This document shows, one piece after another, positions 1,294-29,273 of a DNA stretch of 41,787 nt. The notes under the pieces were generated by a model that had not been told where the DNA came from, ran no database searches, and saw only the letters and a list, made by a program, of their open reading frames with translations. Each line of letters opens with the position of its first letter. Within the stretch, counting starts at the first letter, position 1. The DNA is from Clostridia bacterium (GTDB taxonomy: Bacteria; Bacillota; Clostridia; Oscillospirales; Acutalibacteraceae): the NCBI GenBank assembly GCA_017549565.1, contig JAFYUI010000028.1, forward strand, positions 1 through 41,787. Reading direction: 5' to 3'. Made by a program: the position numbers and the translations under genes.

Positions 1294-1365
1294 ACAAATC
1301 CTCTCAAAATTGGTAACGCAAAAACAAATATAATGATTTTGCGATACTTATCTTCTATCTTTTAA

Positions 1366-2322: not shown

Positions 2323-2334
2323 GTAAATCTCCTT

Positions 2335-3255: not shown

Positions 3256-3308
3256 CACTTCTACCTTTCTGTTTACTGCACAAAAATCGTTAATTGTACA
3301 TACCATTA

Positions 3309-4421: not shown

Positions 4422-4473
4422 GAAAGAATTCTCCTAAACTATTTAAGTCGTGATTTTCTTAAAAGATAAATTA

Positions 4474-5436: not shown

Positions 5437-5440
5437 ATCT

Positions 5441-6583: not shown

Positions 6584-6610
6584 GGTTTAAGCACCCCTTT
6601 ATGTTAAAAT

Positions 6611-7741: not shown

Positions 7742-7747
7742 AAACTT

Positions 7748-8647: not shown

Positions 8648-8662
8648 ATGCAAACTCTCCTT

Positions 8663-10558: not shown

Positions 10559-11532
10559 TACAAATTCTCCTTATACCACTCTATCGCTGCATCAATACCG
10601 CGTTTGAAATCCCATTCGGGGTCATAACCTAAAAGTTCTTTTGCACGGCTTATATCGGCATTGCTGTGCTTAATATCGCCCTTGCGGTCAGGCCCATAAA
10701 TTGGCTGAATATCAACACCAAGCGCTTTTGTAAGACCAAAATAAATATCGTTAAGATATTCACGACCTCCATAAGCGATATTATATGCTTGACCGTCGGC
10801 TTCCTTGGGCGCAAGGCAGGCCTTTAAATTTGCTTCAATAACATTTTCAATATAAGTAAAGTCTCGGCTTTGTTTACCGTCACCATTGATGGTGGGTACT
10901 TCGCCGTTTAAGAGCATTTTAATAAATTTCGGAATAACCGCAGCATAAGCGCCGTTAGGGTCTTGTCTGCGACCAAAAACATTAAAGTAACGCATACCGA
11001 TTGTTGCCAAGCCATAATGCATAGTATATTGCTTTGCCCATTCCTCATCGCAACGCTTTGTAAGTGCATAAGGCGAAAGCAAATTACCCTCTCTACCCTC
11101 TTTCTTAGGTAAATTGGGCTCGTCACCGTAAACGCTTGAACTCGAAGCATAAACAAATTTTTTAACACCACATTGACGGGCGGCTTCAAGCATATTAAGT
11201 GTACCTTGAATATTGTTTAAGCTGTAAAACAACGGCATTTCAAGACTTCTCGGCACGCTACCCCAAGCGGCTTGGTTAAGAACATAATCAACACCTTCAC
11301 ACGCCTTCATACAAGTGTCTAAATCCTTAATATCGCCCTTTACAAATTCATAGTTAGGGTTTTGGATAAACATATCAACATTTGCTTGTTTGCCTGTTGA
11401 CAAATCATCAAGGCAGCGCACCTTATAACCCATTGTAAGTATGGCTTCACAAAGGTTTGAACCGATAAAGCCCGCACCGCCTGTAACTAAAAACAAAGAA
11501 TTTTCAGGGAATTTTAAATGCTTATAACCCAT
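10558..11532 (-). CDS. NAD-dependent epimerase, WbpP/TviC-like (UDP-GlcNAc or UDP-GlcNAcA C4)
   Basis: 324 residues from the ATG at 11532, preceded by TTGGAGA; an in-frame TTG five codons earlier lies inside that ribosome site. It is an extended SDR: Rossmann motif GGAGFIG at 18-24, 'DDLSTGKQANV', 'NQAAWGSVPRS', catalytic serines at 130-133 and YxxxK at Tyr155/Lys159. The 'LDDLSTG' and 'AAWGSVPRS' stretches are the form seen in WbpP and TviC, which work at C4 of UDP-GlcNAc or UDP-GlcNAcA. It follows a WbpO/TviB-like dehydrogenase with a two-base gap, which supports joint production of UDP-GalNAcA (inference). A UDP-Glc/GlcA epimerase is the alternative. Confidence 0.8.
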   Translation of the reverse strand: MGYKHLKFPENSLFLVTGGAGFIGSNLCEAILTMGYKVRCLDDLSTGKQANVDMFIQNPNYEFVKGDIKDLDTCMKACEGVDYVLNQAAWGSVPRSLEMPLFYSLNNIQGTLNMLEAARQCGVKKFVYASSSSVYGDEPNLPKKEGREGNLLSPYALTKRCDEEWAKQYTMHYGLATIGMRYFNVFGRRQDPNGAYAAVIPKFIKMLLNGEVPTINGDGKQSRDFTYIENVIEANLKACLAPKEADGQAYNIAYGGREYLNDIYFGLTKALGVDIQPIYGPDRKGDIKHSNADISRAKELLGYDPEWDFKRGIDAAIEWYKENL

Positions 11533-11534
11533 AA

Positions 11535-12857
11535 TTATAATCTCCAATAAATATATCCCGCATTTTCATATGCCTTGCGGTCAAGAAGTCCCTTAATATC
11601 AGCAAGTACCTTTTTGCTGTTGTCGGCAACCTTAAACATTTTGTCGAAATCAACATTTGACAGGGTTTTAAACTCTTCGTGTGCAACTGCTAAAATTACA
11701 GCATCACAATTTTTAATGTCAGAAATATCAACAAATTCCATACCGTAAAGATGACTTGCTTCATTTTTATCAGCAACAGGGTCAGCAACGGTTGCGGTGA
11801 TGCCGTATTCCTTTAACTCGTTATAAATGTCAATGATTTTGGTGTTGCGGGTATCGGGGCAGTTTTCCTTAAAGGTAAATCCCAAAATAGCAACCTTTGC
11901 ATTTTTAATTGCAACATCGGCTTTAATAAGGTTTTTAACAACGCTTTCGGCAACATATTTGCCCATATCGTCATTTATGCGTCTGCCCGAAAGAATTACC
12001 TGACTGTGATATCCAAGCTGTTCTGCCTTGTATGTAAGATAGTATGGGTCAACACCGATGCAGTGACCACCAACAAGACCGGGATAAAATTTAAGGAAGT
12101 TCCATTTAGTGCCGGCTGCCTCTAAAACCGACTTTGTATCAATACCCATTTTGTTAAAGATAATTGAAAGTTCGTTCATAAAAGCAATATTAATATCGCG
12201 TTGGCTGTTTTCAATAACCTTTGCGGCTTCGGCAACCTTAATTGAAGATGCCCTGTGAACACCTGCATCAACAACGATTTCATAAACCTTTGCAACCTCT
12301 TCAAGTGTTTCATCGTCCATACCTGAAACAATTTTAACAATGGTTTCCAAACGATGCACTTTATCACCTGGGTTAATGCGTTCAGGTGAATAACCAACCT
12401 TAAAGTCAACACCGCATTTAAGACCAGATTCTTTTTCCATAATCGGCACACAAACATCTTCAGTAACACCGGGGTAAACGGTTGATTCAAACACAACTAT
12501 TGAACCCTTTGTAAGATTTCGGCCAACAATTTTACTTGCACCTTCAACAGGGGTAAGGTCAGGTGTATGGTCATCGTTAACAGGAGTTGGTACTGCAACA
12601 ATATGGAATTTGGCATCGCGCAAACGGGTTTCATCCGCAGTAAATTCAACTGTGGTATTTTTAATTGCCTCGTCGCCAACCTCATTTGTGGGGTCAATAC
12701 CCGCTTTATAGGTTTCAATTTTTGCTTTGTTAAGGTCATAACCAATAACCTTTACACCACGCTTTGCAAATTCAATAGCGATAGGCATACCAACATAGCC
12801 AAGACCTACAAGTGAAATAGCTTCTTCTTGTGATTTGATTTTGTCATAAAGTTTCAT
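11535..12857 (-). CDS. UDP-N-acetyl-hexosamine dehydrogenase, WbpO/TviB-like
   Basis: 440 residues from the ATG at 12857 (GAGGAA ribosome site); a TTG two codons earlier is less well spaced. It is a nucleotide-sugar 6-dehydrogenase: Rossmann GLGYVG at 18-23, '[15 protein letters not shown]', '[14 protein letters not shown]', '[11 protein letters not shown]', and '[20 protein letters not shown]', where Cys266 is the catalytic nucleophile. The '[24 protein letters not shown]' region (residues about 252-275) is the WbpO/TviB form rather than the UDP-glucose dehydrogenase form. It oxidises the C6 hydroxyl of UDP-GlcNAc or UDP-GalNAc to the uronic acid using two NAD+. It overlaps nothing and is two bases from its neighbours on each side. 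Confidence 0.87.
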
Positions 12858-12859
12858 AA

Positions 12860-13984
12860 TCAAAATTCCTCTTCTATTATTTTAAATAACATTGACTCAA
12901 CCTTTTCAAGCTCAAAACGGCGACAGCTTTGAATATTAAATTTCCCCATTTCTATACGCTTGTCTGCAACAAGTAAACTCTCAAGTGCATTAACAAAACT
13001 GTCAAGATCATTTGCATTAAATAAAAATCCGCCTTTTTCTTGAACAATTTCCTTGTGACCGCGATTTATCGAGGCGATTATTGGTAAACCACTCGCCATT
13101 TCTTCAATTAAATTAAGCGGTAATCCTTCTCGTTTACTTGCGGATGTGCCTATATCGAATGCGGGTAAAATTTGCGGTACATCATGACGATATCCAAGTA
13201 AAACCACTTGATTTTCAACACCAAGCGATTTTGCAAGCCCGACAAGGTTTTCTTCATTATCGCCCTTGCCAACCAAGAACAGTTTAATATTGTTGTTTTT
13301 AAGCTTAGCAATACCGCGTATCAAAATTTGTTGATTTTTGTTTTGGTTTAGCTCCGCCACGGCAACCAAGGCAATTTCATTTGGTTTTATTCCCAAAGCA
13401 TTACGAAGCTCTTCACGTTTTTCCGCATTTACAGGTGAAAATCTTTTTAAATTTACCCCAATTCCCGGGATATATTTAAAACTTCCGCCTTTTTTAAGCT
13501 TGAACTTTTTACTCGCTTCAAAATCCTCATGGTTAATGGTAACCAAAATATCGGTATATCTTGCCGCAAATTTTTCAATTGTACGGAAAATAAAGTTTTT
13601 AATACCATTATTTCCTTTGAAAAAGTGAAAGCCGTGACAAATATAAATGACCTTAACGCCGCTTTTCCGTGCTGCCAAACGTGTCATTAGGCCCATAACG
13701 GGCTCGTTTGTGATAATTAAATCATAGTCGGCTTCTTTTATTATTTTTTTCAGTTGTTTATATCCTTTAAGGTTAGATAACTTAACAGGACTGCGACTTA
13801 ACTGAACGGTTTTTATTGTGGCCGAAGACAAGTCTTCTAATTTTTTTATCAGTTCGTCTACCCTGTTGCCTACAGGCGAACACACAATATCCACCGCACA
13901 GCCGTTTGTGGACCAAAATTTTATATGGTCAATAAAAAATTGCACTGCCATTAAATCTGTACAGGTTAGCAATATTTTTTTCAT
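12860..13984 (-). CDS. Family 4 glycosyltransferase (EpsD-like)
   Basis: 374 residues. Its ATG overlaps the stop of the transketolase C-terminal gene (ATGA). The N-terminus '[19 protein letters not shown]' and '[13 protein letters not shown]' match the EpsD group of GT4 enzymes (Glyco_trans_4 domain). The donor domain carries '[14 protein letters not shown]', '[11 protein letters not shown]' and '[21 protein letters not shown]'. It acts on the cytoplasmic side of the membrane. EpsD-like enzymes commonly add an early residue after the initiating sugar phosphate, which agrees with its position in the first half of the operon (inference). Confidence 0.87.
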
Positions 13985-14898
13985 TTAATTTTCTCCAAAA
14001 TCTTATTCGCAATTTTTTCGCCGCTCATACCGTATTCGTTTCTTAAATATTTTTGGTTGCCAACTTTAACACAGTATTCATCTGACATGCCAATACGCAT
14101 AAGCCTTGCTTTTGACGGGTTTTCAGCCATAACCTCAGCAACGGCGCCGCCAAAGCCACCCACAACATTGTGCTCTTCACAAGTTACAATCAAATCGTGA
14201 GAGTCAGCACATTCTAAAATTGCTTTAACATCCAATGGCTTAACAGTCGGGAAGGTATAAACAGTGGTGGTTATACCCTTTTCTTCGAGTATTTGACACG
14301 CAATTTCAACCTCTTCAAAAATTGCACCGGTTGAAAAAATTGCAACATCCTTACCGTTTTTAACATTTATTGCTTTGCCGATTTGGAAGTTCTTAATTTC
14401 TTTATGAATTCTTTTTTCGCCGCCGCGACCAAGTCGCAAATAGCAAGTGCCCTCATAATTTGCAATGGCTTTTGTAATTTCTTCGGCTTCGCAAAGGTCA
14501 CCCGGGGCAAACACCGCAACATCAGGTAATGCGCGCATAACGGCAATATCTTCAGTTGCGTGGTGGCTCATACCGAGTGATCCGTAAACAAAACCGCCGC
14601 CAACACAAACTATTTTCACATTTGCATTGTGATAAGCACAGTCATTTCTAATTTGCTCTAAACAACGAAGTGTTGGGAAATTACCGATTGAATAGGTAAA
14701 AACGGTCTTGCCTTCAAGTGCCATACCTGCCGCAAGCGAGGTCATATTTTGTTCGGCAATACCTGCATTTGTAAACTGATTTGGTAACTGCTCGAAATAT
14801 GGCTTTAAAACACCAAAGCCCAAGTCACCTGTAACAAGCTCTATCTTTTCGTCCTCTTTGGCAAGAGAAATTAAAGTTTTAACGAAAGTATCTCTCAT
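13981..14898 (-). CDS. Transketolase, C-terminal subunit
   Basis: 305 residues, ATG start with a GAGGT ribosome site. It contains the pyrimidine-binding domain of thiamine-diphosphate enzymes, with the catalytic glutamate at position 49 in 'AGIAEQNMTSLAAGMAL', then the transketolase C-terminal domain ('GKDVAIFSTGAIFEEV', 'VTCEEHNVVGGFGGAV'). It is half of a split transketolase; the other half lies eight bases upstream. Known: the two halves form one active enzyme that moves a two-carbon ketol unit. A transketolase inside a polysaccharide operon is probably a dedicated copy making an unusual sugar precursor rather than the housekeeping enzyme (inference). Confidence 0.88.
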   Translation of the reverse strand: MRDTFVKTLISLAKEDEKIELVTGDLGFGVLKPYFEQLPNQFTNAGIAEQNMTSLAAGMALEGKTVFTYSIGNFPTLRCLEQIRNDCAYHNANVKIVCVGGGFVYGSLGMSHHATEDIAVMRALPDVAVFAPGDLCEAEEITKAIANYEGTCYLRLGRGGEKRIHKEIKNFQIGKAINVKNGKDVAIFSTGAIFEEVEIACQILEEKGITTTVYTFPTVKPLDVKAILECADSHDLIVTCEEHNVVGGFGGAVAEVMAENPSKARLMRIGMSDEYCVKVGNQKYLRNEYGMSGEKIANKILEKIK

Positions 14899-14906
14899 AA
14901 TATACC

Positions 14907-15842
14907 TCAGCCCTCCTTATTCCATGTGGGGTGCCATGTTGCGCTTGTTGTGTGGTCGTTATAAATATCCGCACCATCAGGAATTTCGGCAGGGTTTTCT
15001 ATTCCATTTGGTGTGTATGGATCAACCACATCAGCGGGTTTATTTTTGTGAAGCGCTAAAACTGCGTTGTCATACTCCCAACCCTCGTGCGGGAAGCGAT
15101 AATGCCATAAAATATCGTTTTCCATAAAGGAAATTCCATATCCCTTAATGGTGTTGGCGATAATAACCGTCGGTTTACTATTCTCAAACTTTTTGTTGAA
15201 TGCATTTTTGAGTTCGTTGTGGTCGTTGCCGTTTATATCAATAACATTCCAACCAAATGCCGACCATTTTGCTGCAAAATTTGAAAGCGCCATTGTCTTA
15301 TCGCAAAAGTCCATGCTTTGCATTTTGTTGTGGTCAACAACAGCCACCAAATTGCCAAGCTCATTATGGTTTGCAAACAAGGCGGCCTCCCAAACAGAGC
15401 CCTCGTCGCATTCACCGTCACCAAGCACAACATAAACCTTATGCGCCTTCTTGTCCTTTTTAGCGGCATAAGCCATACCTGTTGCTGCAGACAAACCATG
15501 ACCTAACGAGCCGGTTGAAAAATCAACACCGGGTAAATGGTGGGAAACATGTCCTGATAAACGACTGCCGTTTTGGTAATGAGTTTTAAGCTCTTCCACA
15601 GGGAAGAAGCCGTTTTCAGCCAAAGCCGCATAAACCGATGCGCCTGCATGTCCCTTGCTTAAAATAAAACGGTCGCGTGTATCGCTTTTGGGGTTGTTGC
15701 AGTCAAAATTTAAAACCTCGGAATAAAGTACAGCCATAATATCCGCAACCGAAAGAATTGCGCCGATGTGGCTGCCACCTGACAAATGGGTCATTTCTAT
15801 GCCGTGTCGTCTAATAAGCCATGCTAAATTTTCGCTTTTCAT
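14907..15842 (-). CDS. Transketolase, N-terminal subunit
   Basis: 311 residues from the ATG at 15842, preceded by GGAAGAGG; the frame stays open 20 codons further but into the end of the acyltransferase gene. It holds the diphosphate-binding domain: SKGH at 62-65, 'GSLGHGLSAATGMAYAAK' and the GDGECDEG motif at 141-148 followed by 'VVDHNKMQS', which binds magnesium and thiamine diphosphate. It pairs with the C-terminal subunit just downstream. The split arrangement is common in Firmicutes and archaea. Possible products include a branched or chain-extended ketose for the polymer, but the substrate cannot be read from sequence. Confidence 0.88.
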   Translation of the reverse strand: MKSENLAWLIRRHGIEMTHLSGGSHIGAILSVADIMAVLYSEVLNFDCNNPKSDTRDRFILSKGHAGASVYAALAENGFFPVEELKTHYQNGSRLSGHVSHHLPGVDFSTGSLGHGLSAATGMAYAAKKDKKAHKVYVVLGDGECDEGSVWEAALFANHNELGNLVAVVDHNKMQSMDFCDKTMALSNFAAKWSAFGWNVIDINGNDHNELKNAFNKKFENSKPTVIIANTIKGYGISFMENDILWHYRFPHEGWEYDNAVLALHKNKPADVVDPYTPNGIENPAEIPDGADIYNDHTTSATWHPTWNKEG

Positions 15843-15855
15843 AAACCTCTTCCAA

Positions 15856-16848
15856 TCATAAGTGATAAAATTTTGTGTTGGTTTTATGCTCAAACCAACC
15901 AATAGCTTTAATAATTGCTATTGGCATAAAAATACCAACGATTAGCATTGCAGGGAAAATTATATAAAAAGATGCATTAAGCAACCTTTCTAATACGATT
16001 TCGATAACCAACTGGCAAGGCCAAGAAAGTATAAAAATTGAATAAGTTTGTGCAAAAACAGATTTTTTGTTGATTTCAAATCTTTTTGATATTTCAAAAC
16101 TAAATAGAAAAACCGAAAATACCATTAAAATTGAAATAATGAATTTTACTGCAATTTGATTTTTTGTAAAAACAAACAAAGCTATACTTAAAGTTAAAAG
16201 TGTGCCTGCTAACAAATAGGAAAATTTATTGGTAGTCAAACAGTTATATTTAGCACACACTATGCCAAGCATAAAATAAAAGCCAAAATGCACAATGTCA
16301 TTAATCGAAAACCAACCTGTTATTTGCGGTAAGAAAAACATTACCGCGCTTAATAATGTGATAAGTAAAATTTTCAAGGTTAACAGCTTTTTAGATTTTA
16401 AGATTACATAGCCAAGTATATTTATAAAAAATATCATTGGCAAAAACCAAAAATGTCCCCAAACGCTGTCACGAGGAACTAAAAACGAACGAATTATTTG
16501 TAAAACATCAAATGAAAGTGTGTCGTTTAAAAATGGACTTAATAAAATTTTAGGAACAACTGCAATAAGAGAAAAAGCGAAATAAGGCACTAAAATATGC
16601 TTTATTCTTCGTAACAGATAATCTTTAAAACTGTATTTTTCGGTTTGGTTTGTGGCAAACATTAAATAACCGCTGCACCAAACAAAAAGCGGCATATGAA
16701 AGTCATAAATGAAATATTGCAGTTTTTCTGCCCAAAACGGAATATCGACAACAAATGGATAGGAGTGCCCAAGAATTACAAGAAAACAACCTATCATTTG
16801 CATCAATGTTATAAATGATAATTTTTTGGCGGGTTGGTTTACACTCAT
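15856..16848 (-). CDS. Acyltransferase 3 family membrane protein
   Basis: 330 residues with about ten hydrophobic segments. The N-terminus has 'MIGCFLVILGHSYPF', with the H-containing first helix, and 'DFHMPLFVWCSGYLMF', both hallmarks of PF01757 (OafA/NodX-like). Known: these integral membrane enzymes carry acyl groups, usually acetyl, across the membrane and place them on sugar hydroxyls. It should O-acylate the repeat unit or polymer. It lies 13 bp before the transketolase N-subunit start and 21 bp after the reductase. The acceptor position is unknown. Confidence 0.85.
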   Translation of the reverse strand: MSVNQPAKKLSFITLMQMIGCFLVILGHSYPFVVDIPFWAEKLQYFIYDFHMPLFVWCSGYLMFATNQTEKYSFKDYLLRRIKHILVPYFAFSLIAVVPKILLSPFLNDTLSFDVLQIIRSFLVPRDSVWGHFWFLPMIFFINILGYVILKSKKLLTLKILLITLLSAVMFFLPQITGWFSINDIVHFGFYFMLGIVCAKYNCLTTNKFSYLLAGTLLTLSIALFVFTKNQIAVKFIISILMVFSVFLFSFEISKRFEINKKSVFAQTYSIFILSWPCQLVIEIVLERLLNASFYIIFPAMLIVGIFMPIAIIKAIGWFEHKTNTKFYHL

Positions 16849-16869
16849 AATTTTATAACCTGCATTTTT

Positions 16870-17808
16870 TTATTTTGAAATTAAATCTAATTCTTTTATC
16901 TCATCATCTGTTAGACACCAATCGGTTGCGGCAATATTGCCAAGAATTTGTGATGGCCTTTTAGCACCGACAAGCACAACTGAATCTTTAAGATAGTCAA
17001 GAATAAAACGAAGTGCCACAGCTGAAACGGGCACATTGTGATTTTCAGCAATAGGTCGCATTTTTTCAACTATTTCAAGGTTTTTTCTAAACTTTTCACC
17101 GTGGAAATTAACATAAATTTCACGGCTGCGGCGGTCGTTACTGCCAAAGGATGCGTTAATATCATACTTGCCTGTTAAAACACCTTGTCCCAAGCTGCCC
17201 CAAGTCATCGGTGTAAGCAAAAGTTGTTTTGCTAAATCGGTAAGTTCAAACTCGTTTTTGCGGCAGGCGAGCGAAAATTCATCCTGCATTGAAACAAACT
17301 TGCCCGAAAATGATTTAAGCTCGTTTAAATCTTCTTCGTAAATGTTTGAAAGACCATAGCTTCTGATATATCCCTTTGCCTTGTATTTTTCAAGGGCATC
17401 AACCACATCACCGATAGGTGTAACACCATCACGGTAATGAATTTGATAAACATCAATATAATCAGTTTTAAGGCGGCGTAAGCTGTCAGTCAAAGCTTTT
17501 TCGATATAAGCGGGCGAATTATCATAAAAGGTTTTGCCGTTTTCTACCCTAACGCCAAACTTTGTTGCAATGACAACATCCTGTCGCTTTTCGCCAAGCG
17601 CCTTTGCCAAGGTTTCTTCCGATTTGCCAAGCCCGTATGTGTCAGCCGTATCAAAAAAGTTAACCCCGTTTTCAATAGCAACATTAACGGTATCTAAAAG
17701 CTCTTGCTCCTGCACATCGCCCCAACCGTACTGCCCCATAGGGCAACCGCCCATACAAATGCGGGAAACCTTAATGTCTGAATTTTTTAAAGTTATGTAT
17801 TCCATCAT
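16870..17808 (-). CDS. Aldo/keto reductase
   Basis: 312 residues. The ATG at 17808 overlaps the stop of the sugar transferase (ATGA), with AAAGGA upstream; the next codon is also ATG and could serve. All four catalytic residues of the family are present: Asp53, Tyr58, Lys83 and His124, in the contexts 'NFFDTADTYG', 'ATKFG' and 'DVYQIHY'. It would use NAD(P)H to reduce a carbonyl in the cytosol. It sits between the initiating transferase and the acyltransferase, two genes from the split transketolase. I infer that it reduces a ketose or keto-sugar intermediate for the polymer; a general oxidoreductase carried along in the operon is also possible. Confidence 0.83.
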   Translation of the reverse strand: MMEYITLKNSDIKVSRICMGGCPMGQYGWGDVQEQELLDTVNVAIENGVNFFDTADTYGLGKSEETLAKALGEKRQDVVIATKFGVRVENGKTFYDNSPAYIEKALTDSLRRLKTDYIDVYQIHYRDGVTPIGDVVDALEKYKAKGYIRSYGLSNIYEEDLNELKSFSGKFVSMQDEFSLACRKNEFELTDLAKQLLLTPMTWGSLGQGVLTGKYDINASFGSNDRRSREIYVNFHGEKFRKNLEIVEKMRPIAENHNVPVSAVALRFILDYLKDSVVLVGAKRPSQILGNIAATDWCLTDDEIKELDLISK

Positions 17809-18536
17809 TTATTTCCTTTAATTATTTTTAAACATTTTTTCAAAACCTTAAAAACCGTTTCAAAAAATATTTTTAAGTCGGTTTTAAAAGAAACATTTGC
17901 AACATATTTCAGTCGCAGTTGATTTTTGCGTTTTAAAACATACTGCTCATAAATTTCGTCAACATTGTCAGTTCCGACAATTTCATCTAAATTTATGAAA
18001 TCCATCGAGCTAAAATCAGTTATACCGGGGCGAACATTTAAAATGTTTTTTTCAAGTTCGTCATACTGGTCGGTATATTTTAAAAGCTCAGGTCGTGGGC
18101 CGATAAAGCTCATACTGCCGTTTAAAATATTGAAAAGCTGTGCGGTTTCATCTAACTTTGTTTTTCTTAAAAACGCACCAACCTTGGTAATTCGGCTATC
18201 GTTTAGTGCGGTAGTGCCCGAACCGATTTTGTCAGCATCCTTTACCATTGTGCGAAATTTAAAAATATTAAAGCTTTTGTTTTTATATCCGCCACGAAGC
18301 GGTTTGTAAAAAACAGGGAAACCCGTATCAACCGCTACCGCCACCGCAATAATAAGCATAAAGGGCCAAACGACCAACAAACCAATTAAAGCAAGGGTAA
18401 AATCTATAACCCGTTTAGCATATAAATTATAAAAACTATGGTATGACTTTTTTAAGCTTTCGTTTGTATAGTCCAAATCTTCCAAAGCAAGTTTGCTTTG
18501 GACTTCATCAGAAAATTTTATTTTTGTTTCTATCAA
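17805..18536 (-). CDS. Initiating undecaprenyl-phosphate sugar-phosphate transferase (Bac_transf)
   Basis: I choose a TTG at 18536 (about 243 residues), with AAAGGTGA just upstream. The frame is open for 48 more codons, but that stretch contains the operon promoter, so those codons cannot be translated. One long hydrophobic segment ('FTLALIGLLVVWPFMLIIAV') is followed by the PF02397 catalytic domain: 'FRTM' after 'SFNIFK', 'KLDETAQLFNILNG' and 'MSFIGPRPEL'. Known: these monotopic enzymes transfer a sugar phosphate from UDP-sugar to undecaprenyl phosphate, the first step of repeat-unit assembly. It lacks the multi-pass N-terminal part of WbaP. Being first in the operon fits its role. Confidence 0.85.
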   Translation of the reverse strand: MIETKIKFSDEVQSKLALEDLDYTNESLKKSYHSFYNLYAKRVIDFTLALIGLLVVWPFMLIIAVAVAVDTGFPVFYKPLRGGYKNKSFNIFKFRTMVKDADKIGSGTTALNDSRITKVGAFLRKTKLDETAQLFNILNGSMSFIGPRPELLKYTDQYDELEKNILNVRPGITDFSSMDFINLDEIVGTDNVDEIYEQYVLKRKNQLRLKYVANVSFKTDLKIFFETVFKVLKKCLKIIKGNK

Positions 18537-18594
18537 AATATCACCTTTATGTAAAGTTTTATCAGGGCATAATAAACGCAATTTTACATCTAAC

Positions 18595-18623
18595 ATTATA
18601 TCACATAGTGCGCCAAATAGCAA
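18595..18623 (-). promoter_or_regulatory. SigA-type promoter of the polysaccharide operon
   Basis: Reading leftward, TTGCTA (18618-18623) and a perfect TATAAT (18595-18600) are separated by 17 bases. Transcription should start near 18588, giving a leader of about 50 bases before the TTG start at 18536. No other comparable promoter was seen within the following 18 kb, where gaps are small. Confidence 0.75.
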
Positions 18624-18666
18624 CAATATTTTAATTATATATAATATATAAATAAATATATGCCAA

Positions 18667-18711
18667 GCCCCCAAAGTCATATAATTATTTATAAGATTTT
18701 TGGGGGTTATT
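18667..18711 (+). repeat. Inverted repeat just before the sigK start
   Basis: CCCCCAAA (18668-18675) can pair with TTTGGGGG (18698-18706 region), with an AT-rich loop between. The right arm contains the GGGGG that I read as the sigK ribosome site, so pairing would hide it. Whether it forms in the message depends on where transcription starts, which I cannot see. Confidence 0.35.
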
Positions 18712-22082: not shown

Positions 22083-23000
22083 TTATTTAATATCCTTAAT
22101 ATCATAAGGTGTTGTTTGGTAAACAAAATAGTTAAGCCAGTTTGAATATAAAAGGTTTGCGTGTGAACGCCAAGTAACAATTGGCTCGTTTTCGGGGTTA
22201 TCATCTGGGAAATAGTTTTTAGGAATTTCAATAGGTTTACCCTCATTTAAGTCCCTAAAATATTCATTCGCAAGGGTGTTTGCATCATATTCGCTGTGAC
22301 CCGTAATAAAAATTTGTTTACCCTCGGCAGTAGCCATTGCGTAAACGCCTGCCTCTTCAGAAGAAGCCAAAATTTTAATTTCGGGTATCTTTTTAATATC
22401 CTCGACATCAACGGTTGTATGGCGTGAATGCGGCACCATAAACTCATCATCAAAGCCACGGAACAAAATAGACTTTTTATAGTCGGCCTTATGCTTAAAC
22501 ACACCAAACATTTTCTTATCTAAGGGCTTTTTGTCTATGCCAAAGTGGTAATAAAGCCCCGCCTGTGCACCCCAACAAATGTGGAAGGTAGAATGAACAT
22601 GGGTTTTGCTCCATTCCATAATTTCGCAAAGCTCTTCCCAATAGGTCACCTCTTCAAAGGGCATATTTTCAACCGGTGCGCCGGTAATTATCATACCGTC
22701 AAAGGTTTGGTCTTTTACATCATCAAAGGTTTTGTAAAAGGCGAAAAGATGCTCGGCAGGGGTGTTTTTTGATTTGTGGCTTTTTGTATGAATAAGCTCA
22801 AGTTCAACCTGTAAAGGTGAGTTACCTAAAAGTCGTGAAAGCTGTGTTTCGGTTTCAATCTTTTTAGGCATTAGGTTTAAAAGCAAAATTTTAAGAGGAC
22901 GGATATCCTGTGTTATGGCACGGGTTTCGGTCATAACAAAGATATTTTCGTCATTAAGGGTTTTTACCGCCGGTAAATCGTTCGGTATTCTTATCGGCAT
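22083..23000 (-). CDS. metAA: Homoserine O-acetyltransferase (MetA family, acetyl-CoA type)
   Basis: 305 residues. MetA-fold active site: catalytic Cys142 in '[12 protein letters not shown]', with His235 and Glu237 in 'GHSEYD'. Residue 111 is glutamate ('GAPVENMPF'). Known from work on Bacillus cereus MetA: Glu111 selects acetyl-CoA, while glycine at this site gives succinyl-CoA use as in E. coli. The product is therefore expected to be O-acetyl-L-homoserine, which is exactly the substrate of the MetY enzyme encoded 19 bp upstream. It is the last gene of the T-box operon and ends at a bidirectional terminator. Confidence 0.92.
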
Positions 23001-23019
23001 AGCTTACTATTTCCTTACT

Positions 23020-24303
23020 TTAAATTTTATCAAGTGCTTGTTTAATATCAGCGATGATATCCTCTGCATCCTCAATACCGCAAGAAAAACGGATAAGGTC
23101 AGGTGTGATGCCTGCGGCAGTTAATTCATCATCGTTCATTTGACGGTGGGTTGCATTTGCAGGATGCAAACAACAGGTTCTTGCATCGGCAACATGGGTT
23201 GCAATAGAAGCAAGCTTTAACTGCTTCATAAAGGCTTCGGCAGCGGCACGACCGCCCTTAACACCAAAACTTACAACACCACAACCGCCGTTTGGCATAT
23301 ATTTCATTGCCAAATCATAGTTTTTATCGCCCTCTAAATGCGGACATCTTACCCAAGCAATACGCTCATCATTTTTAAGTGCCTTTGCAACTGCAAGGGC
23401 ATTTTCAGCGTGCTTTTTAATTCTTAAATGCAAGCTTTCAAGACCAAGTCCCAAAACATAAGCAGTTTGGGCTTGTTGACAGCAACCAAAGTCACGCATT
23501 AACTGTGCAGTGGCTTTTGTTATATATGCGCCCTCTATACCAAAGCGTTCGGTATAGGTGACACCGTGATAGCTTTCGTCAGGGGTGCAAAGGCCCGGGA
23601 ATTTATCGGGGTATTTGGTCCAGTCAAATTTACCGCTATCGACAATACAACCGCCAACAGCACTGCCGTGACCGTCCATATACTTTGTGGTGGAATGCAC
23701 AACAATATCTGCGCCCCACTCAAAAGGTCTGCAATGAACAGGGGTAGCAAAGGTGTTATCGATAATAAGCGGAACACCATTTTTATGTGCAATATTTGCA
23801 AAGCGTTCGATATCCAAAACAGTTAAAGCAGGGTTTGCAATAGTTTCACCGAAAACCGCCTTGGTATTGGGTTTAAAAGCGGCTTGTAGCTCTTCATCAG
23901 AGCAGTCAGGGTCAACAAAGGTAAAGTCAATGCCCATACGCTTTAATGTAACGGCAAACAGGTTGTATGTACCGCCATAAATTGCAGAAGATGCAACAAT
24001 ATGGTCACCACAGCCCGCAATATTGAAAATTGAAAAGAAGGATGCTGCCTGACCTGATGAAGTCAGCATTGCGGCAGTGCCGCCCTCCATCTCACAAATT
24101 TTTGCTGCAACATAGTCACAGGTGGGGTTTTGAAGGCGGGCATAAAAATATCCGCTTGCTTCAAGGTCAAAAAGCTTACCCATATCCTCGCTTGTGTCGT
24201 ACTTATAGGTAGTGCTTTGATATATCGGAATTTGGCGTGGCTCACCGTTTTTGGGGGTATAACCACCCTGAACACATTTGGTGCCCATTAAGAAATCGCT
24301 CAT
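23020..24303 (-). CDS. metY: O-acetylhomoserine sulfhydrylase / aminocarboxypropyltransferase MetY
   Basis: 427 residues. Its ATG overlaps the stop of the amidohydrolase gene by four bases (ATGA). It is a Cys/Met metabolism PLP enzyme: PLP lysine Lys207 in 'VVHSTTKYMDGHG', 'ASSAIYGGTYNLF', 'DNTFATPV' and the C-terminal 'HPANATHRQM' and 'IRFSCGIEDAEDI'. Length and the 'GYTPKNGEPRQIPIYQSTTY' start fit MetY rather than MetB/MetC. It makes homocysteine from O-acetylhomoserine and sulfide (or methionine from methanethiol). No SAM riboswitch lies directly upstream; control must come from the T-box leader at the head of the operon. Confidence 0.92.
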   Translation of the reverse strand: MSDFLMGTKCVQGGYTPKNGEPRQIPIYQSTTYKYDTSEDMGKLFDLEASGYFYARLQNPTCDYVAAKICEMEGGTAAMLTSSGQAASFFSIFNIAGCGDHIVASSAIYGGTYNLFAVTLKRMGIDFTFVDPDCSDEELQAAFKPNTKAVFGETIANPALTVLDIERFANIAHKNGVPLIIDNTFATPVHCRPFEWGADIVVHSTTKYMDGHGSAVGGCIVDSGKFDWTKYPDKFPGLCTPDESYHGVTYTERFGIEGAYITKATAQLMRDFGCCQQAQTAYVLGLGLESLHLRIKKHAENALAVAKALKNDERIAWVRCPHLEGDKNYDLAMKYMPNGGCGVVSFGVKGGRAAAEAFMKQLKLASIATHVADARTCCLHPANATHRQMNDDELTAAGITPDLIRFSCGIEDAEDIIADIKQALDKI

Positions 24304-25115
24304 TTAATTGCCTCCAAATTAAAAAGTTTCTTTGCGTTTATATTAAGTATACTACTTATTTCGTTTTTTTCAAGTGGCAGCGACAAAAAATATTCTAATT
24401 CACTCTTTGGCGACCACATTGGATAATCGGTACCAAAAAGCACCTTATTAGCACCATATTTTCTTATAATTTTAAGCGCTGTTTCTTTAGAAATCCACGG
24501 AAAGCTTGAAGAACAGTCAACATAAAAATTAGGTATTTCGGCATAAACATCAGGCGCTTCATCCCATATGGACCAACCGCCGAAATGGGCGCCAATAACT
24601 GTTAGATTTTTATAAATTTGTAAAATTGGCAAAAGTCGGTTTGGGTTTGAATAATCATAACGATTATCCCCCGTATGCATTAAAATTTTAAGGCCGTTTT
24701 TCTCGCATTCCTCATAAATTTTAAGGCAACGGTAATCATCAATTTTAAACGCCTGAATATCAGGGTGAAGCTTTACACCCAAAAGGCCAAGCTCCATAAG
24801 ATATGCCACATCACCCTTAATATCACTGCTGTCGGGGTGAAGTGTGCCAAGCCCTGTCATTTTGCCATTTGCAGCCGTTACCGACTGTGCGATAAATTCG
24901 TTTATGCTTTTAACCTGTTTTGGTGTTGTTGCAACCGACTGCACAATAAAATGGTCAATTCCCGCCTTTTCGCCTTCAATAAGCAAATCGCTGACAGTAC
25001 CCTTGCAAAAGGACTTGCAGTTGTAAAAATTATCAGTACCCGCAACCGCCCTTTCGGCAATTTTTTCGGGATAAATATGGCAGTGTGAATCGATTACATA
25101 TATTCCGTTTACCAC
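24300..25115 (-). CDS. Amidohydrolase family protein (Amidohydro_2 TIM barrel)
   Basis: 271 residues with a GTG start at 25115 that shares one base with the stop of the fusion gene (TAGTG). Metal and catalytic ligands of PF04909 are visible: His11 and His13 ('DSHCHIYP'), His117 ('VKLHPD'), His147 ('LMHTGD'), His177 ('IGAHFGG') and Asp230 ('LFGTDYPMW'). Known: members hydrolyse or decarboxylate small carbonyl and amide compounds. It is cytosolic, and the substrate is unknown. Its coupling to the isomerase/ligase fusion upstream and to metY downstream suggests it works in the same pathway. Confidence 0.85.
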   Translation of the reverse strand: MVNGIYVIDSHCHIYPEKIAERAVAGTDNFYNCKSFCKGTVSDLLIEGEKAGIDHFIVQSVATTPKQVKSINEFIAQSVTAANGKMTGLGTLHPDSSDIKGDVAYLMELGLLGVKLHPDIQAFKIDDYRCLKIYEECEKNGLKILMHTGDNRYDYSNPNRLLPILQIYKNLTVIGAHFGGWSIWDEAPDVYAEIPNFYVDCSSSFPWISKETALKIIRKYGANKVLFGTDYPMWSPKSELEYFLSLPLEKNEISSILNINAKKLFNLEAIK

Positions 25116-27607
25116 TATTTCTTCAGTCCTAATTTCTCTACTGCGTTTTCACGCATTTTATATTTCAAAATTTTACCTGCGGCATTCATTGGGAAAGCAT
25201 CAACAAAGTCATAATAACGCGGCACCTTATGTCTTGCCATATGGTCGGCAATATACTGACGCATTTCATCCTCAGTCATACTTTCGCCATCTTTTAAAAT
25301 GATGCAGGCCATAATTTCTTCGCCGTATTTTTCGTCCGGCACACCGATAACCTGAACATCGCTAACCTTGGGACAGGTGTAAATAAATTCCTCAATTTCC
25401 TTGGGGTAAATATTTTCACCACCACGAATTATCATATCCTTTAAACGACCTGTTATACGGTAATTACCGTCATCATCCTTACAAGCAAGGTCGCCTGTAT
25501 GAAGCCAGCCGTCCTTATCAATGGCCTCGGCTGTGGCTTTGGGCATTTTGTAATAGCCCTTCATAATATTATATCCACGAGCAACAAATTCGCCATTAAC
25601 ACCGTTTTCGCAGTCCTCCCCTGTTTCGGGGTTAATAATTTTACATTCAACATTTGCAAAAGCGCTGCCAACAGTTTCGGTGCGAACCTCCAAGCTGTCA
25701 TAATAACGGCTCATAGTGCATCCCGGGGCTGCTTCAGTTTGACCGTAAACCGACACGATTTCACGCATATTCATATCAACGGTTGCGCGTTTCATAAGGT
25801 CGGCAGGACAGTTTGCACCCGCCATAATACCAACACGCATATATGAAAAGTCGGTTTTTGCAAAGTCAGGATGCTCCATCATTGCAATAAACATTGTGGG
25901 AACACCATTAAAGGTTGTGATATGCTCGTTATTAACGCAAGCAAGTGCTGATTTTGGTGAAAAATAAGGAAGCGGTGACATTGTAGCACCGTGTGTCATT
26001 GCGGCAGTCATTGAAAGCACCATACCAAAGCAATGGAACATTGGCACCTGAATCATCATTCTGTCGGCGGTGGAAAGCTCCATCTGGTCGCCGATAAACT
26101 TACCGTTGTTTACAACATTATAGTGTGTAAGCATTACACCCTTTGGAAAACCTGTTGTGCCCGAGGTGTACTGCATATTGCAAACATCATCCTTATCAAC
26201 GCGGGATGCCATGCGATAAACCTCTGACAATGGCACCTGACCTGCACGGTCAATGGCATTTTCCCAAGTAAGACAACCCTTTTGCTTAAAGCCGACGGTG
26301 ATAACATTGCGTAAAAACGGCAAGCGCTTACTGTGAAGCAAATCGCCAGCTTTTGTGCTTTCAAGTTCGGGGCAAAGCTCGGCAATAATTTCGCCGTATT
26401 TACAGTCCTTTGCACCCTCGGTCATAATAAGTGTATGTGTGTCAGACTGCCTTAAAAGGTATTCAATTTCGTGTATTTTATAAGCGGTATTAACCGTTAC
26501 AAGAACAGCGCCAAGCTTTACAGTTGCCCAAAACGCAATATACCATTGCGGCACATTAGACGCCCAAACCGCAACATGTGTACCCGCTTTTACACCCAAG
26601 GATATGAGCGTACGGGCAAATTCATCAACATCATCACGGAATTCACTATATGTTCTTGTATAGTCAAGGGTTGTATATTTAAAAGCATATTGGTCTGGAA
26701 ATTCTTCAACAACCCTGTCAAGCATTTGTGAAAATGTGTTGTCAATCAAACGGTTTCTTTCCCAAATATAGCAGCCGGTGTGAGCGCGGTTAAAGTAAAG
26801 CGAATTATCGCTTTTTGAAGTGTCGCTAAACTGCTTCATATAGGTAACAAACTGTGAAAAAATGATTTCCAAATCGTCAATTTCTTCACACCACTCAGGC
26901 ACCCATTCAAGCGAAACAAAGCCATCAAAATTAACCGAACGAAGCGCCAAAATCATATCAGCGATAGGCATTTCACCCTCGCCAAGCAAACGAAATTCTA
27001 CACCCCTGTCAGTTTTAACAGCATCCTTTAAATGCACCTGCTTTACATAAGCACCAAGGTTTTTAATTGTGGTTTCGGCATCCTCTTTATTGTAAAAATA
27101 AGGTGCGTACATATCCCAAAGCGCCGCCAAGCTATCAGATGCGAAGCTGTCAAGCAAATCACGAAGCTTTGCGGTGTCAGCAAACACACCCGAGGTTTCA
27201 AGCAACAACACAACCTCGTTCTTTTCGGCAATCGGCAAAATTTCGGCTATAACACCGCGGATATATTCTATATCCTCAAAGTCGTATGCTTTAATACGAA
27301 CATAGGGTATATGCAAATTGTTTGCAATTTCTATGCAAGCCAAAATTTCTTTTAAAGTAGCATCCTTTTCGGTGGCATTTGCCAAATTGCAAATGCTGTC
27401 AATACAAGGTATGCCAAGCTTTTTTTCATAAAGCTTTCTAAGTGTTTTAGGGGCGGCCGATGCGTGAAAAGCACCATCCTTTTGGGTAAAAAGCTCGTTA
27501 TGAATATTGTGAAGCTCTATACCCTGAAATTTTAAATCAACGGCAATGTCGCAAAAATCATCAAAGCTGCGGCCGTGCCAACCCTTTGTTGAAAAAGATA
27601 ATTTCAT
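25115..27607 (-). CDS. Fusion: sugar-isomerase-like TIM barrel + AMP-forming acyl-CoA synthetase
   Basis: 830 residues in one frame. Residues 1-260 are a xylose-isomerase-like TIM barrel (PF01261) with the expected metal ligands Glu137 ('LLLETSG'), Asp165 ('LWDMYAPY'), His192 ('KQVHLKDA') and Glu234 ('VSLEWVPEW'). Residues about 285-830 are an AMP-binding synthetase: P-loop 'YTSGTTGFPKG' (480-490), 'VYGQTEAAPG', 'GWLHTGDLACKDDDGNYRITGR', 'IIRGGENIYPKEIEEF' and catalytic Lys812 in 'AAGKILKYKMR'. Both halves look catalytically complete. Known: such synthetases make acyl-CoA through an acyl-AMP. I infer that the barrel forms or reshapes an acid which the second half activates. The substrate is unknown. 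It begins five bases after the LeuA-like gene. Confidence 0.85.
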   Translation of the reverse strand: MKLSFSTKGWHGRSFDDFCDIAVDLKFQGIELHNIHNELFTQKDGAFHASAAPKTLRKLYEKKLGIPCIDSICNLANATEKDATLKEILACIEIANNLHIPYVRIKAYDFEDIEYIRGVIAEILPIAEKNEVVLLLETSGVFADTAKLRDLLDSFASDSLAALWDMYAPYFYNKEDAETTIKNLGAYVKQVHLKDAVKTDRGVEFRLLGEGEMPIADMILALRSVNFDGFVSLEWVPEWCEEIDDLEIIFSQFVTYMKQFSDTSKSDNSLYFNRAHTGCYIWERNRLIDNTFSQMLDRVVEEFPDQYAFKYTTLDYTRTYSEFRDDVDEFARTLISLGVKAGTHVAVWASNVPQWYIAFWATVKLGAVLVTVNTAYKIHEIEYLLRQSDTHTLIMTEGAKDCKYGEIIAELCPELESTKAGDLLHSKRLPFLRNVITVGFKQKGCLTWENAIDRAGQVPLSEVYRMASRVDKDDVCNMQYTSGTTGFPKGVMLTHYNVVNNGKFIGDQMELSTADRMMIQVPMFHCFGMVLSMTAAMTHGATMSPLPYFSPKSALACVNNEHITTFNGVPTMFIAMMEHPDFAKTDFSYMRVGIMAGANCPADLMKRATVDMNMREIVSVYGQTEAAPGCTMSRYYDSLEVRTETVGSAFANVECKIINPETGEDCENGVNGEFVARGYNIMKGYYKMPKATAEAIDKDGWLHTGDLACKDDDGNYRITGRLKDMIIRGGENIYPKEIEEFIYTCPKVSDVQVIGVPDEKYGEEIMACIILKDGESMTEDEMRQYIADHMARHKVPRYYDFVDAFPMNAAGKILKYKMRENAVEKLGLKK

Positions 27608-27612
27608 TAAAT

Positions 27613-28965
27613 TTATGCCTCCTCGTAAACAATTTTGTTTACAGCATTTATATACGCCTTAATAGCGGCGGCGATAATATCGGTAGAAATACCGTTACCC
27701 GAATAAAGCTTGCCGTTCACACGAAGCTTTACAACGGCGTTACCCATAGCGCCCTTACCTTCGGTAACCGACTGAATTTGAAAATCGTCAAGCTCGTAAC
27801 GGCAACCAATGATTTGTTCAATGGCGTGGAAAGCCGCATCAATAGGGCCGTCACCCGTGCTGATGCCCTGCTTTTGTTCGCCCTTAACATCAAGTGTGAT
27901 TTGTGCCGAAGCAGTAATAATATTACCGCTGTTTACAACAAAGTTTACAAGCTTAAAGGTGGGCTCAACCTGAAGTGCAACAGTAGCTACAATAGCATCA
28001 AGCTCTTTTGAAGTTACCTTTCGGTTTGCAGCAACACGCAAAAATTCTTCATAAACCTTTGCACTGTCATCCTCTGACAAATCATAACCAAGGCGTGAAA
28101 CTGTATCTAAAACAGTTTGCTTGTCATCACTTTCGGTCAATGACAATTCATCGGTTAAATCATCGGCTTTAACAAAATCCTTTGTGTCATTAGCATTGCC
28201 CATAATCCAATCAATTTGGTTTATAATGCGATTAAGCTGTGTGTATTTGACAGAGCTTTCGATATTTAAATTATTTCCGCAATTTTTAATAACGCCTGCA
28301 AAGGTTAAAAGGTCAATTTCGTTTGAAACTGCGGTTTTAACTGTGTTTGCGCCATTTTTAACTGCCATAACTGCATTTGCCACAGCAAGACCGTTTTTGT
28401 TTTCGCAAACAACACCGTCAACTGCCAAATCCTTTACAAATGCGCCAAATTCATCAGGCATCATTTCGGCGGCAGTGTCACAAACTGTAATTACATTAGC
28501 GCCCGCATTTCTTGCAGCGCTTATTGCTTCTTTCAAGAAGTCCACTTCGGCACGGGTTGCGTCCACGGCAACAAATTCAACATCCGAAATTTTTTCTTTT
28601 GCGTACGAAACCAATTCTTCAATAAGCTTTAACATTTTATCCGGCTTTTTATGTAAGCTGTACTCCATACCGACAGTTGACACGGGAAGTTCAATTCTAA
28701 CCCTGCCCTTTGCGGCAGTATTAAGCGCCAAAACTGCATCATCAATACCTTTTTTAGTAGGCGCAGCAGCAAGTGATAAAACCGCATTTTTTACAAAATA
28801 TGCAATGGTTTTAACAAGCAAAGTGTCGGTTTTAACATTTTCCATTATTGGAAGTTCAATAGCTGAAACCGATAGCTTTTCAAGCTGTCTTGCTATTTCA
28901 ATTTTCTCCTTAAAACTGAAATTTGCCTTTAAAGATAAAGTTCTGTCAGCGATTTTGATGTTCAT
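27613..28965 (-). CDS. LeuA-like protein lacking catalytic motifs, with intact LeuA regulatory domain
   Basis: 450 residues from the ATG at 28965 (AGAGGA upstream); the open frame continues upstream only because the T-box leader has no stops. Residues 1-255 align with the isopropylmalate/citramalate synthase barrel, e.g. 'NFSFKEKIEIARQLEKL' and 'VITVCDTAAEMMPDEF'. But the N-terminal TLRDGEQ motif is replaced by 'RTLSLKANF', losing the catalytic Arg and metal-binding Asp, and the HxHND metal site is replaced by 'VCENKNGLAVANA'. The C-terminal LeuA dimer/regulatory domain (about 330-445) is well kept ('QGISTGDGPIDAAFHAIEQII', 'NGISTDIIAAAIKAYINAVN'). It is about 60 residues shorter than LeuA. 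It may be a pseudoenzyme, an effector sensor or an enzyme with new chemistry. Confidence 0.8.
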   Translation of the reverse strand: MNIKIADRTLSLKANFSFKEKIEIARQLEKLSVSAIELPIMENVKTDTLLVKTIAYFVKNAVLSLAAAPTKKGIDDAVLALNTAAKGRVRIELPVSTVGMEYSLHKKPDKMLKLIEELVSYAKEKISDVEFVAVDATRAEVDFLKEAISAARNAGANVITVCDTAAEMMPDEFGAFVKDLAVDGVVCENKNGLAVANAVMAVKNGANTVKTAVSNEIDLLTFAGVIKNCGNNLNIESSVKYTQLNRIINQIDWIMGNANDTKDFVKADDLTDELSLTESDDKQTVLDTVSRLGYDLSEDDSAKVYEEFLRVAANRKVTSKELDAIVATVALQVEPTFKLVNFVVNSGNIITASAQITLDVKGEQKQGISTGDGPIDAAFHAIEQIIGCRYELDDFQIQSVTEGKGAMGNAVVKLRVNGKLYSGNGISTDIIAAAIKAYINAVNKIVYEEA

Positions 28966-28980
28966 AAAAAATCCTCTTTC

Positions 28981-29273
28981 AAAATAAAAAATAAAGCCCT
29001 GAGACTGCAACAAAGCAATCTCAGGGACGAAAGTTTTCGCGGTACCACCCTGATTACCGTTTTTAAAAACGGTCACTCGATAAAGCTCTAACAAGCTTTT
29101 TGCCAAGATAACGGGGCAAGCCGTAGCCACTTACTATAATTTCAGAAGCTCTGCTCAGGAACGAGACTTGCACTTTTTGACCGTACCACCTTGCACCGAA
29201 ATGGCGGCTCTCTTAAACGGGTGAAAAAAGCAATAATTCCGTCAACGCATTTAATATAATGATATTAAAATAT
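28981..29273 (-). promoter_or_regulatory. T-box riboswitch leader (tRNA-sensing) of the LeuA-like/met operon
   Basis: Reading leftward the elements occur in canonical order: AAGAGAG (about 29207-29213), the GGTGCAAGG loop, CCTGAGC...TTCTGAA with a following AGTAAG, stem III (perfect palindrome 29056-29073), the T-box AGGGTGGTACCGCG (29038-29051) and GTCCC pairing to make the antiterminator, then the terminator (28997-29026) with a T-rich tail. The specifier triplet, judged by its place just before TGAA/AGTA, reads TTC (Phe); CTT (Leu) is the alternative one base away. Uncharged cognate tRNA binding should favour read-through into the operon. Confidence 0.85.
28985..29026 (-). terminator. T-box intrinsic terminator
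   Basis: CCCTGAGATTGC and GCAGTCTCAGGG pair over 12 bases (one G-U) around a short TTTGTT loop at 28997-29026, followed leftward by CTTTATTTTTTATTTT. The CCCTG arm is shared with the antiterminator, so the two structures exclude each other. Confidence 0.88.

Follow-up and report, generated by a model that had tools for sequence, protein, structure and literature searches.

HisZ of the HisG-HisZ pair is a catalytically dead paralogue that is kept to control another enzyme. T-boxes turn genes on upon shortage of the cognate amino acid, and gut bacteria use branched-chain acids as growth factors. Rumen bacteria convert isovalerate to leucine by reductive carboxylation (Allison, Bryant, and Doetsch 1962, as cited in PMC7356843), and the conversion by ruminococci has been cited since 1962. 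For Prevotella, PMC7709123 names a reverse reaction of a ferredoxin oxidoreductase (EC 1.2.7.7) as a theoretical possibility. MbcS, the methylbutyryl-CoA synthetase of Staphylococcus aureus, uses 2-methylbutyrate and isobutyrate, with isovalerate being a poor substrate (PMC10026030). Our search of open-license literature found no paper in which the conversion of isovalerate to leucine is connected with ligase genes, T-boxes or a dead LeuA.

Here we analyzed a window of 41,787 nucleotides, the whole stretch of one contig from the genome of a gut bacterium of the Acutalibacteraceae (order Oscillospirales), which carries a LeuA paralogue that we call pLeuA. It shares with LeuA (EC 2.3.3.13) a common ancestry, an HMGL-like barrel and a LeuA_dimer domain, and a few intact LeuA relatives also have a leucine T-box. 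However, pLeuA lacks the metal and catalytic residues, the GERAGN loop and the GIHQHG subdomain, no leuBCD genes were found in its own genome, and its apparent partner is an acyl-CoA ligase. The rumen isovalerate route depends on three kinds of enzyme, namely acyl-CoA ligase, Vor-type oxidoreductase and transaminase, all of which are present in the same genome, whereas the ligases, their T-boxes and the dead LeuA are not tied to this route in the literature that we found. Like HisZ, pLeuA may be regarded as a dead paralogue of a metabolic enzyme proposed to control another enzyme, but it would stem from the very pathway that was replaced, and its regulation is one that we infer. We propose that pLeuA is probably a regulatory pseudoenzyme of a leucine-from-isovalerate operon, serving as the leucine-sensing subunit of an isovaleryl-CoA ligase. 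The features on which this proposal draws are listed in Table 1.

Table 1. Features of the pLeuA locus and of the companion cluster, in window positions unless a locus is named
Feature	Position	Strand	Basis
pLeuA, LeuA paralogue without catalytic residues, 450 aa	27613..28965	-	open reading frame, Pfam, alignment
TIM barrel of pLeuA (HMGL-like, aa 12-213), active-site residues gone	28327..28932	-	Pfam; residue counts
Regulatory domain of pLeuA (LeuA_dimer, aa 317-445), conserved	27631..28017	-	Pfam; column counts
Fusion protein, AP_endonuc_2 barrel (aa 20-236) plus AMP-forming acyl-CoA ligase (aa 297-812)	25115..27607	-	Pfam
AP_endonuc_2 barrel of the fusion; putative ligands E137, D165, H192, E234 all kept	26900..27550	-	Pfam, alignment
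AMP-binding acyl-CoA ligase domain with C-terminal domain, signature motifs intact	25172..26719	-	Pfam, alignment
Amidohydrolase (PF04909), frequent third gene	24300..25115	-	Pfam
T-box leader RNA (RF00230) upstream of pLeuA	29020..29254	-	Rfam, 120.3 bits (gathering score 93), full length
Specifier codon CUC (leucine)	29163..29165	-	Rfam alignment, sequence, pattern parse
C2 cluster of the window's own genome: two T-box ligases, VorB-A-C and BCAT	L179 (G000:C2) 3715-13994		

Loss of the LeuA active site in pLeuA

The 450-codon open frame of pLeuA matched HMGL-like (PF00682) with 113.9 bits (cut-off 29) and LeuA_dimer (PF08502) with 114.9 bits (cut-off 24.9), as expected from the original prediction, which had described an open frame with recognizable barrel flanks and a preserved C-terminal LeuA regulatory domain. 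Seventeen NCBIfam models matched the protein, none of them at its own cut-off (best, 266.8 bits against 532), and the LeuA equivalog cut-off was not reached by the window copy.

The same prediction had noted that the catalytic motifs are gone. We take the Arg and Asp of TLRDGEQ to be catalytic and HxH and GERAGN to contain metal ligands. In the alignments, the Arg of TLRDGEQ is changed to Ser while DGEQ falls in a gap, and HCHND reads VCENK. The predicted replacement was thus right for TLRDGEQ and HxHND; the GERAGN loop, said to have been replaced by unrelated sequence, instead lies in a gap and was deleted. A subdomain of about 28 columns with GANAFAH..GIHQHG, located between the barrel and the regulatory domain in LeuA and not mentioned in the original prediction, is also absent. 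All 141 pLeuA sequences have gaps at the Glu and Arg of GERAGN and at the His of GIHQHG. An alternative alignment restoring the motifs was sought among three alignments, with the catalytic columns counted in two of them, and none was found. We scored 12 catalytic, metal or loop residues that are present in 19 of 19 intact LeuAs from the same taxonomic order. The window copy keeps none of the 12; across all 141 pLeuA sequences, the window copy included, 107 keep none, 32 keep one and two keep two.

To compare the domains, columns were called invariant in real LeuA when shared by at least 18 of 19 sequences, and kept when the same residue occurs in at least 80% of pLeuA sequences. By this measure, pLeuA retains 26 of 86 invariant columns in the barrel, 1 of 28 in the linker and 16 of 23 in the regulatory domain, so the loss is targeted at the active site. 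Six of the 23 regulatory invariants are changed, so the effector of pLeuA could have shifted, which weighs against the leucine-sensing role proposed above.

The original prediction had also suggested new chemistry, and a related reading is that the pLeuA barrel is a working pathway enzyme with a new catalytic or ligand-binding role, for example toward an acyl-adenylate, CoA or isovalerate. The barrel is under purifying selection, and three residues that differ in real LeuA are nearly invariant in pLeuA, namely P94 (140/141), K107 (141/141) and K210 (132/141); these residues keep the door open to such a role. However, most of the old active-site positions are variable, including the former His1 metal position (K in 37 sequences, S in 17, Q in 16, R in 15, A in 11 and M in 9), the active-site loop and the subdomain are absent, and the evolutionary rate of the barrel is roughly double that of the regulatory domain (mean distances, 0.90 vs 0.42). 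We therefore regard a working barrel as unlikely, and new chemistry has little support.

In a tree of 61 pLeuA, 19 LeuA and 7 CimA-like sequences, pLeuA was monophyletic (support 100/99) and sat adjacent to real LeuA, with a long stem of 1.13 changes per site. Support for real LeuA as a group was weak (87/55), so pLeuA possibly arose within it. Comparison of the window copy with six pLeuA relatives gave dN/dS values of 0.09-0.16, and in five of six pairs the regulatory domain had a lower ratio than the barrel; these ratios apply among pLeuA sequences only, and for the more divergent pairs dS reached high values of up to 3.4. Hence pLeuA, of which 141 sequences were compared, is one old clade under purifying selection. 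Pseudogene status was considered and ruled out by the single clade and the low dN/dS. Together with the family-wide loss of motifs, these results strongly support the pseudoenzyme that had been predicted.

Copies of pLeuA occur in 82 of 300 genomes of the family. The order sample, with 394 genomes, has pLeuA in 86 of them, across 14 families, when fragments at contig ends are included. A scan of species genomes gave at least 575 relatives, perhaps including intact LeuA. The best 80 of these, which were fetched, came from metagenome-assembled Clostridia, including Oscillospiraceae, Clostridiaceae, Ruminococcaceae and Ruminococcus sp., and many of their record titles name animal gut samples.

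The fusion ligase and the T-box leaders

In the window, the gene for the fusion protein starts 5 nt downstream of pLeuA. Counted across genomes, as the original prediction had proposed, the two genes are on the same contig in 81 of the 82 family genomes with pLeuA and no more than 60 nt apart in 79 of 82; in the 82nd (L135), the contig ends inside the fusion gene. The ligase motifs are conserved in nearly all of 119 aligned fusions. Of 85 loci with sufficient downstream sequence, 60 have the amidohydrolase gene on the same strand no further than 4.5 kb downstream.

At least 35 genomes of the sample have the fusion but no pLeuA, and 27 of these 35 retain ilvC. The fusion can thus work alone, which weighs against the role proposed for pLeuA. 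We fetched 20 such loci from 19 genomes, 19 of them with enough upstream sequence. A T-box core preceded the fusion in 4 of these 19, and the codon at the specifier position, read from the sequence, was CUC or CUG in all four, so a leucine regulon can include the ligase even where pLeuA is absent.

In sugar isomerases and epimerases of the AP_endonuc_2 type, E-D-H-E presumably represents four metal ligands. These putative ligands were complete in 20 of 20 fusions without pLeuA and in 30 of 99 pLeuA-linked fusions, among them the window copy. As the site is incomplete in the other 69, catalysis by this barrel seems dispensable in many pLeuA lineages. The retention of all four ligands in the window copy weighs against the mechanism proposed here.

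Several variants of the locus were observed. At L229 (G599:C7, 1569-8797), the AP_endonuc_2 (30% identical) and ligase (54%) parts exist as separate genes near an intact LeuA, and this pair is a possible forerunner of the fusion. The fusions without pLeuA at L173, L174 and L176 adjoin an oxidoreductase-like gene (427-444 aa, identified by eye), and the fusion reading frame is 1052-1077 aa at L174 and L176, compared with the usual 840. Stand-alone ligases at G014:C4:20838-22496 and G227:C18:2565-4244 each contain one in-frame TGA.

Beyond the leader in the window, a T-box above the gathering score preceded pLeuA in 29 of 32 other loci searched with Rfam (20/20, 6/8, 2/3 and 1/1 by batch). A pattern parse of 135 pLeuA upstream regions yielded a specifier in 115, of which 103 were leucine codons (96 CUC and 7 CUG) and 12 were other codons, at least one of the latter (L029) being CUC by Rfam alignment; the remaining 20 regions were unparsed. 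By pattern, the T-box core motif was absent from 25 of the 135 regions, which weighs against general leucine control of pLeuA. These counts shift with the choice of rule, as GAGCAGAGC offers two possible anchors for the parse. An earlier rule gave 95 CUC and 5 CUG among 112 parsed regions, and another gave 76 CUC, 5 CUG and 31 others among 112, mostly from the second anchor. In PMC2494555, the specifier codon lies 1-5 nt ahead of a conserved GAG, whereas the rule used here places 6 nt between them. We favored this rule because it reads UGG before a TrpX-like gene and because a shift of one nucleotide turns the GUAG cases into a stop codon. The TrpX-like gene is that of L118 (3399-7086), where a UGG (Trp) T-box lies upstream of a transporter gene that NCBIfam matches best to TrpX (290.9 bits, cut-off 390).

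T-box leaders were found at 2 of 9 intact LeuA loci by Rfam (L118 and L213, both CUC) and at 2 of 19 by pattern (L118 and L124). Since some intact LeuAs carry such leaders, albeit rarely, the leader of pLeuA may have come along with its gene. The shared CUC type also fits the view of pLeuA as a decaying leuA remnant hitch-hiking on a leucine T-box. Against this stand its single clade on a long branch, its low dN/dS, and its presence in 14 families with the ligase nearly always adjoining, and we consider such a remnant very improbable.

At seven loci (L058, L068, L076, L087, L088, L092 and L110), pLeuA follows Vor and BCAT genes on the same strand with no T-box directly ahead, and in four of them (L058, L068, L076 and L092) the upstream ligase has a Val box. 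Control at such loci is therefore not by leucine tRNA alone.

Branched-chain amino acid genes in pLeuA genomes

In the window's own genome, a draft of 96% completeness in which an absence can equal a gap, we found no second LeuA_dimer protein, no match for ilvC or ilvD, and no second aconitase or second Iso_dh. The one aconitase and the one isocitrate/isopropylmalate-dehydrogenase-type gene both lie beside a Re-citrate-synthase-like gene. An intact second LeuA was looked for in this genome and not found; there are two other HMGL-like genes. By eye, we take the first, beside the aconitase and isocitrate dehydrogenase, to be of the Re-citrate-synthase type and the second to be of the oxaloacetate/pyruvate-carboxylase type.

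Across the family sample, LeuC was scored by a proxy of at least two matches, since aconitase gives one; this proxy misses a LeuC-type ORF beside LeuA in G194. LeuC so defined was present in 7 of 82 pLeuA genomes and 156 of 218 others, and ilvC in 11 of 82 and 153 of 218. By these two markers, most pLeuA genomes are without the ordinary leucine pathway. Conversely, VorB (2-oxoisovalerate oxidoreductase) was present in 75 of 82 pLeuA genomes compared with 88 of 218 others. Coordinates were listed for 72 of these genomes; VorB lies no more than 12.5 kb from pLeuA in 42 and on another contig in the other 30. Among 77 loci with 6 kb of upstream sequence, the genes found upstream on the same strand were VorB (28), VorA and VorC (29), the branched-chain aminotransferase (23) and a ligase with HTH and cupin domains (24). 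VorB and IlvE of L126 scored above their NCBIfam cut-offs, as did VorB of the window's genome, whose BCAT is 79% identical to that of L126. Nevertheless, 7 of 82 pLeuA genomes show no VorB, 11 of 82 have ilvC, and G194 has pLeuA plus a real LeuA, LeuC and IlvC, all of which weighs against pLeuA serving a replacement route throughout. A CbiA-like P-loop NTPase (L126:4359-5030) accompanies VorB in 28 of 28 upstream Vor clusters.

The C2 cluster of the window's genome holds an Ile T-box (AUC; 105 bits), an MbcS-like ligase with HTH and cupin domains, and a gene of about 210 aa. It also holds a Val T-box (GUA), a second MbcS-like ligase, a P-loop protein, VorB, VorA, VorC and BCAT, so that acyl-CoA ligases, the oxidoreductase and the aminotransferase occur together. 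The Val T-box scored 88.6 bits in Rfam, just below the gathering score of 93. Of 31 regions upstream of HTH/cupin ligases, 11 had an Ile specifier, 15 a Val specifier (12 GUA and 3 GUC), and 5 were not parsed. At L134, L150 and L225, Ile-box and Val-box ligases stand side by side together with pLeuA and the fusion; a Leu leader was found at L134 by Rfam, and the pattern parse found none at L150 and L225.

MbcS was the best NCBIfam match of the three HTH/cupin ligases tested, at 434-443 bits. They differ from it in scoring below the cut-off of 850 and in the HTH and cupin domains in front of the ligase, which in these relatives form a transcription-factor-like front end on a metabolic ligase. 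As isovalerate is a poor substrate for MbcS (PMC10026030), leucine would be left to the pLeuA-linked ligase. The genome of the window thus has Leu, Ile and Val T-boxes, each ahead of its own acyl-CoA ligase. One T-box per ligase is the arrangement expected if leucine, isoleucine and valine are made from isovalerate, 2-methylbutyrate and isobutyrate, respectively, a physiology long known from rumen bacteria (PMC7356843).

The same enzymes might instead run backwards, from leucine to isovalerate, or the ligase might take another acid, with pLeuA tuning that activity. The reactions of Vor and BCAT are generally known to be reversible, which would allow this. Yet the response of T-boxes to amino acid shortage fits synthesis, and the normal synthesis genes are absent from most of these genomes, making degradation or another acid improbable.

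Co-evolution of the barrels and a proposed role for pLeuA

We examined whether the pLeuA barrel and the AP_endonuc_2 (AP) domain of the fusion evolve together. At 65 loci, their distances correlated at 0.75 given the ligase part, whereas the control correlation between the pLeuA barrel and the neighboring amidohydrolase was 0.33, falling to 0.01 once the AP domain was also removed. In a larger set of 94 loci the correlation was 0.70 and was reached in 0 of 300 permutations, a test that ignores relatedness. Contact between the two barrels would be the simplest explanation, although the fast evolution of both could inflate the correlation, and correlation is no proof of contact.

A different possibility is that pLeuA senses leucine and acts elsewhere than on the ligase, either as a scaffold for Vor, ligase and aminotransferase or in the control of gene expression. 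The clustering of pLeuA with Vor and BCAT would suit this view. However, the fixed neighbor is the fusion ligase, Vor being near in 42 of 72 genomes, and it is the AP domain with which the barrel co-evolves. In addition, Pfam found no DNA-binding domain in pLeuA, and the T-box already controls expression. An action away from the ligase therefore seems doubtful.

The original prediction had offered a regulatory partner for another enzyme as one option. This reading is likely, as the Leu T-box, the co-evolution of the two barrels and the constant proximity of the fusion ligase gene support it, and it now comes with a named partner, pathway and effector. The T-box, the missing leu and ilv genes, the 2-oxoisovalerate oxidoreductase clusters and the Ile and Val T-box ligases, which account for this context, go beyond what that prediction mentioned. 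With the usual pathway absent, the leucine-sensing part conserved and the ligase adjoining, the dead enzyme is most likely a feedback sensor of the replacement route.

In the mechanism that we propose, the substrate of the ligase, the direction of flux, leucine binding, the complex and the direction of control are what we infer beyond the sequence itself. Uncharged tRNA-Leu would act on the Leu T-box and so induce both pLeuA and the fusion. Its ligase would convert gut isovalerate to isovaleryl-CoA, VorBAC would reductively carboxylate this to 2-oxoisocaproate, and the branched-chain aminotransferase would yield leucine. Without catalysis of its own, pLeuA would dock by its barrel on the AP_endonuc_2-like barrel of the ligase, and leucine on its regulatory domain would shut the ligase down.

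More tentatively, and with somewhat less than even confidence, we suggest a swap of the isopropylmalate route for isovalerate import and carboxylation, in which the dead first enzyme was kept solely as a leucine sensor and re-wired to a new first enzyme, the acyl-CoA synthetase, with the two-barrel joint relaying the leucine signal. Such a history appears unusual, as the dead first enzyme of a lost route would guard the first enzyme of its replacement, and pLeuA may exemplify how a dead enzyme can pass allosteric control on to another pathway. Together, the pLeuA locus and its companion cluster form a testable gene set, with one ligase per branched acid, each under the T-box of its own amino acid, together with Vor and BCAT. 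This set would predict which uncultured species rely on their neighbors for branched-chain acids.

Other genes in the window were also recorded. Downstream, positions 22083-24303 encode MetA (above the NCBIfam cut-off for the acetyl form) and an O-acetylhomoserine sulfhydrylase (above its NCBIfam cut-off), relatives of which are each found downstream in 14 of 85 related loci. Positions 679-18680 contain a polysaccharide-type cluster with a sugar-transferase-like gene, a nucleotide-sugar dehydrogenase gene and a separate N-terminal half of transketolase.
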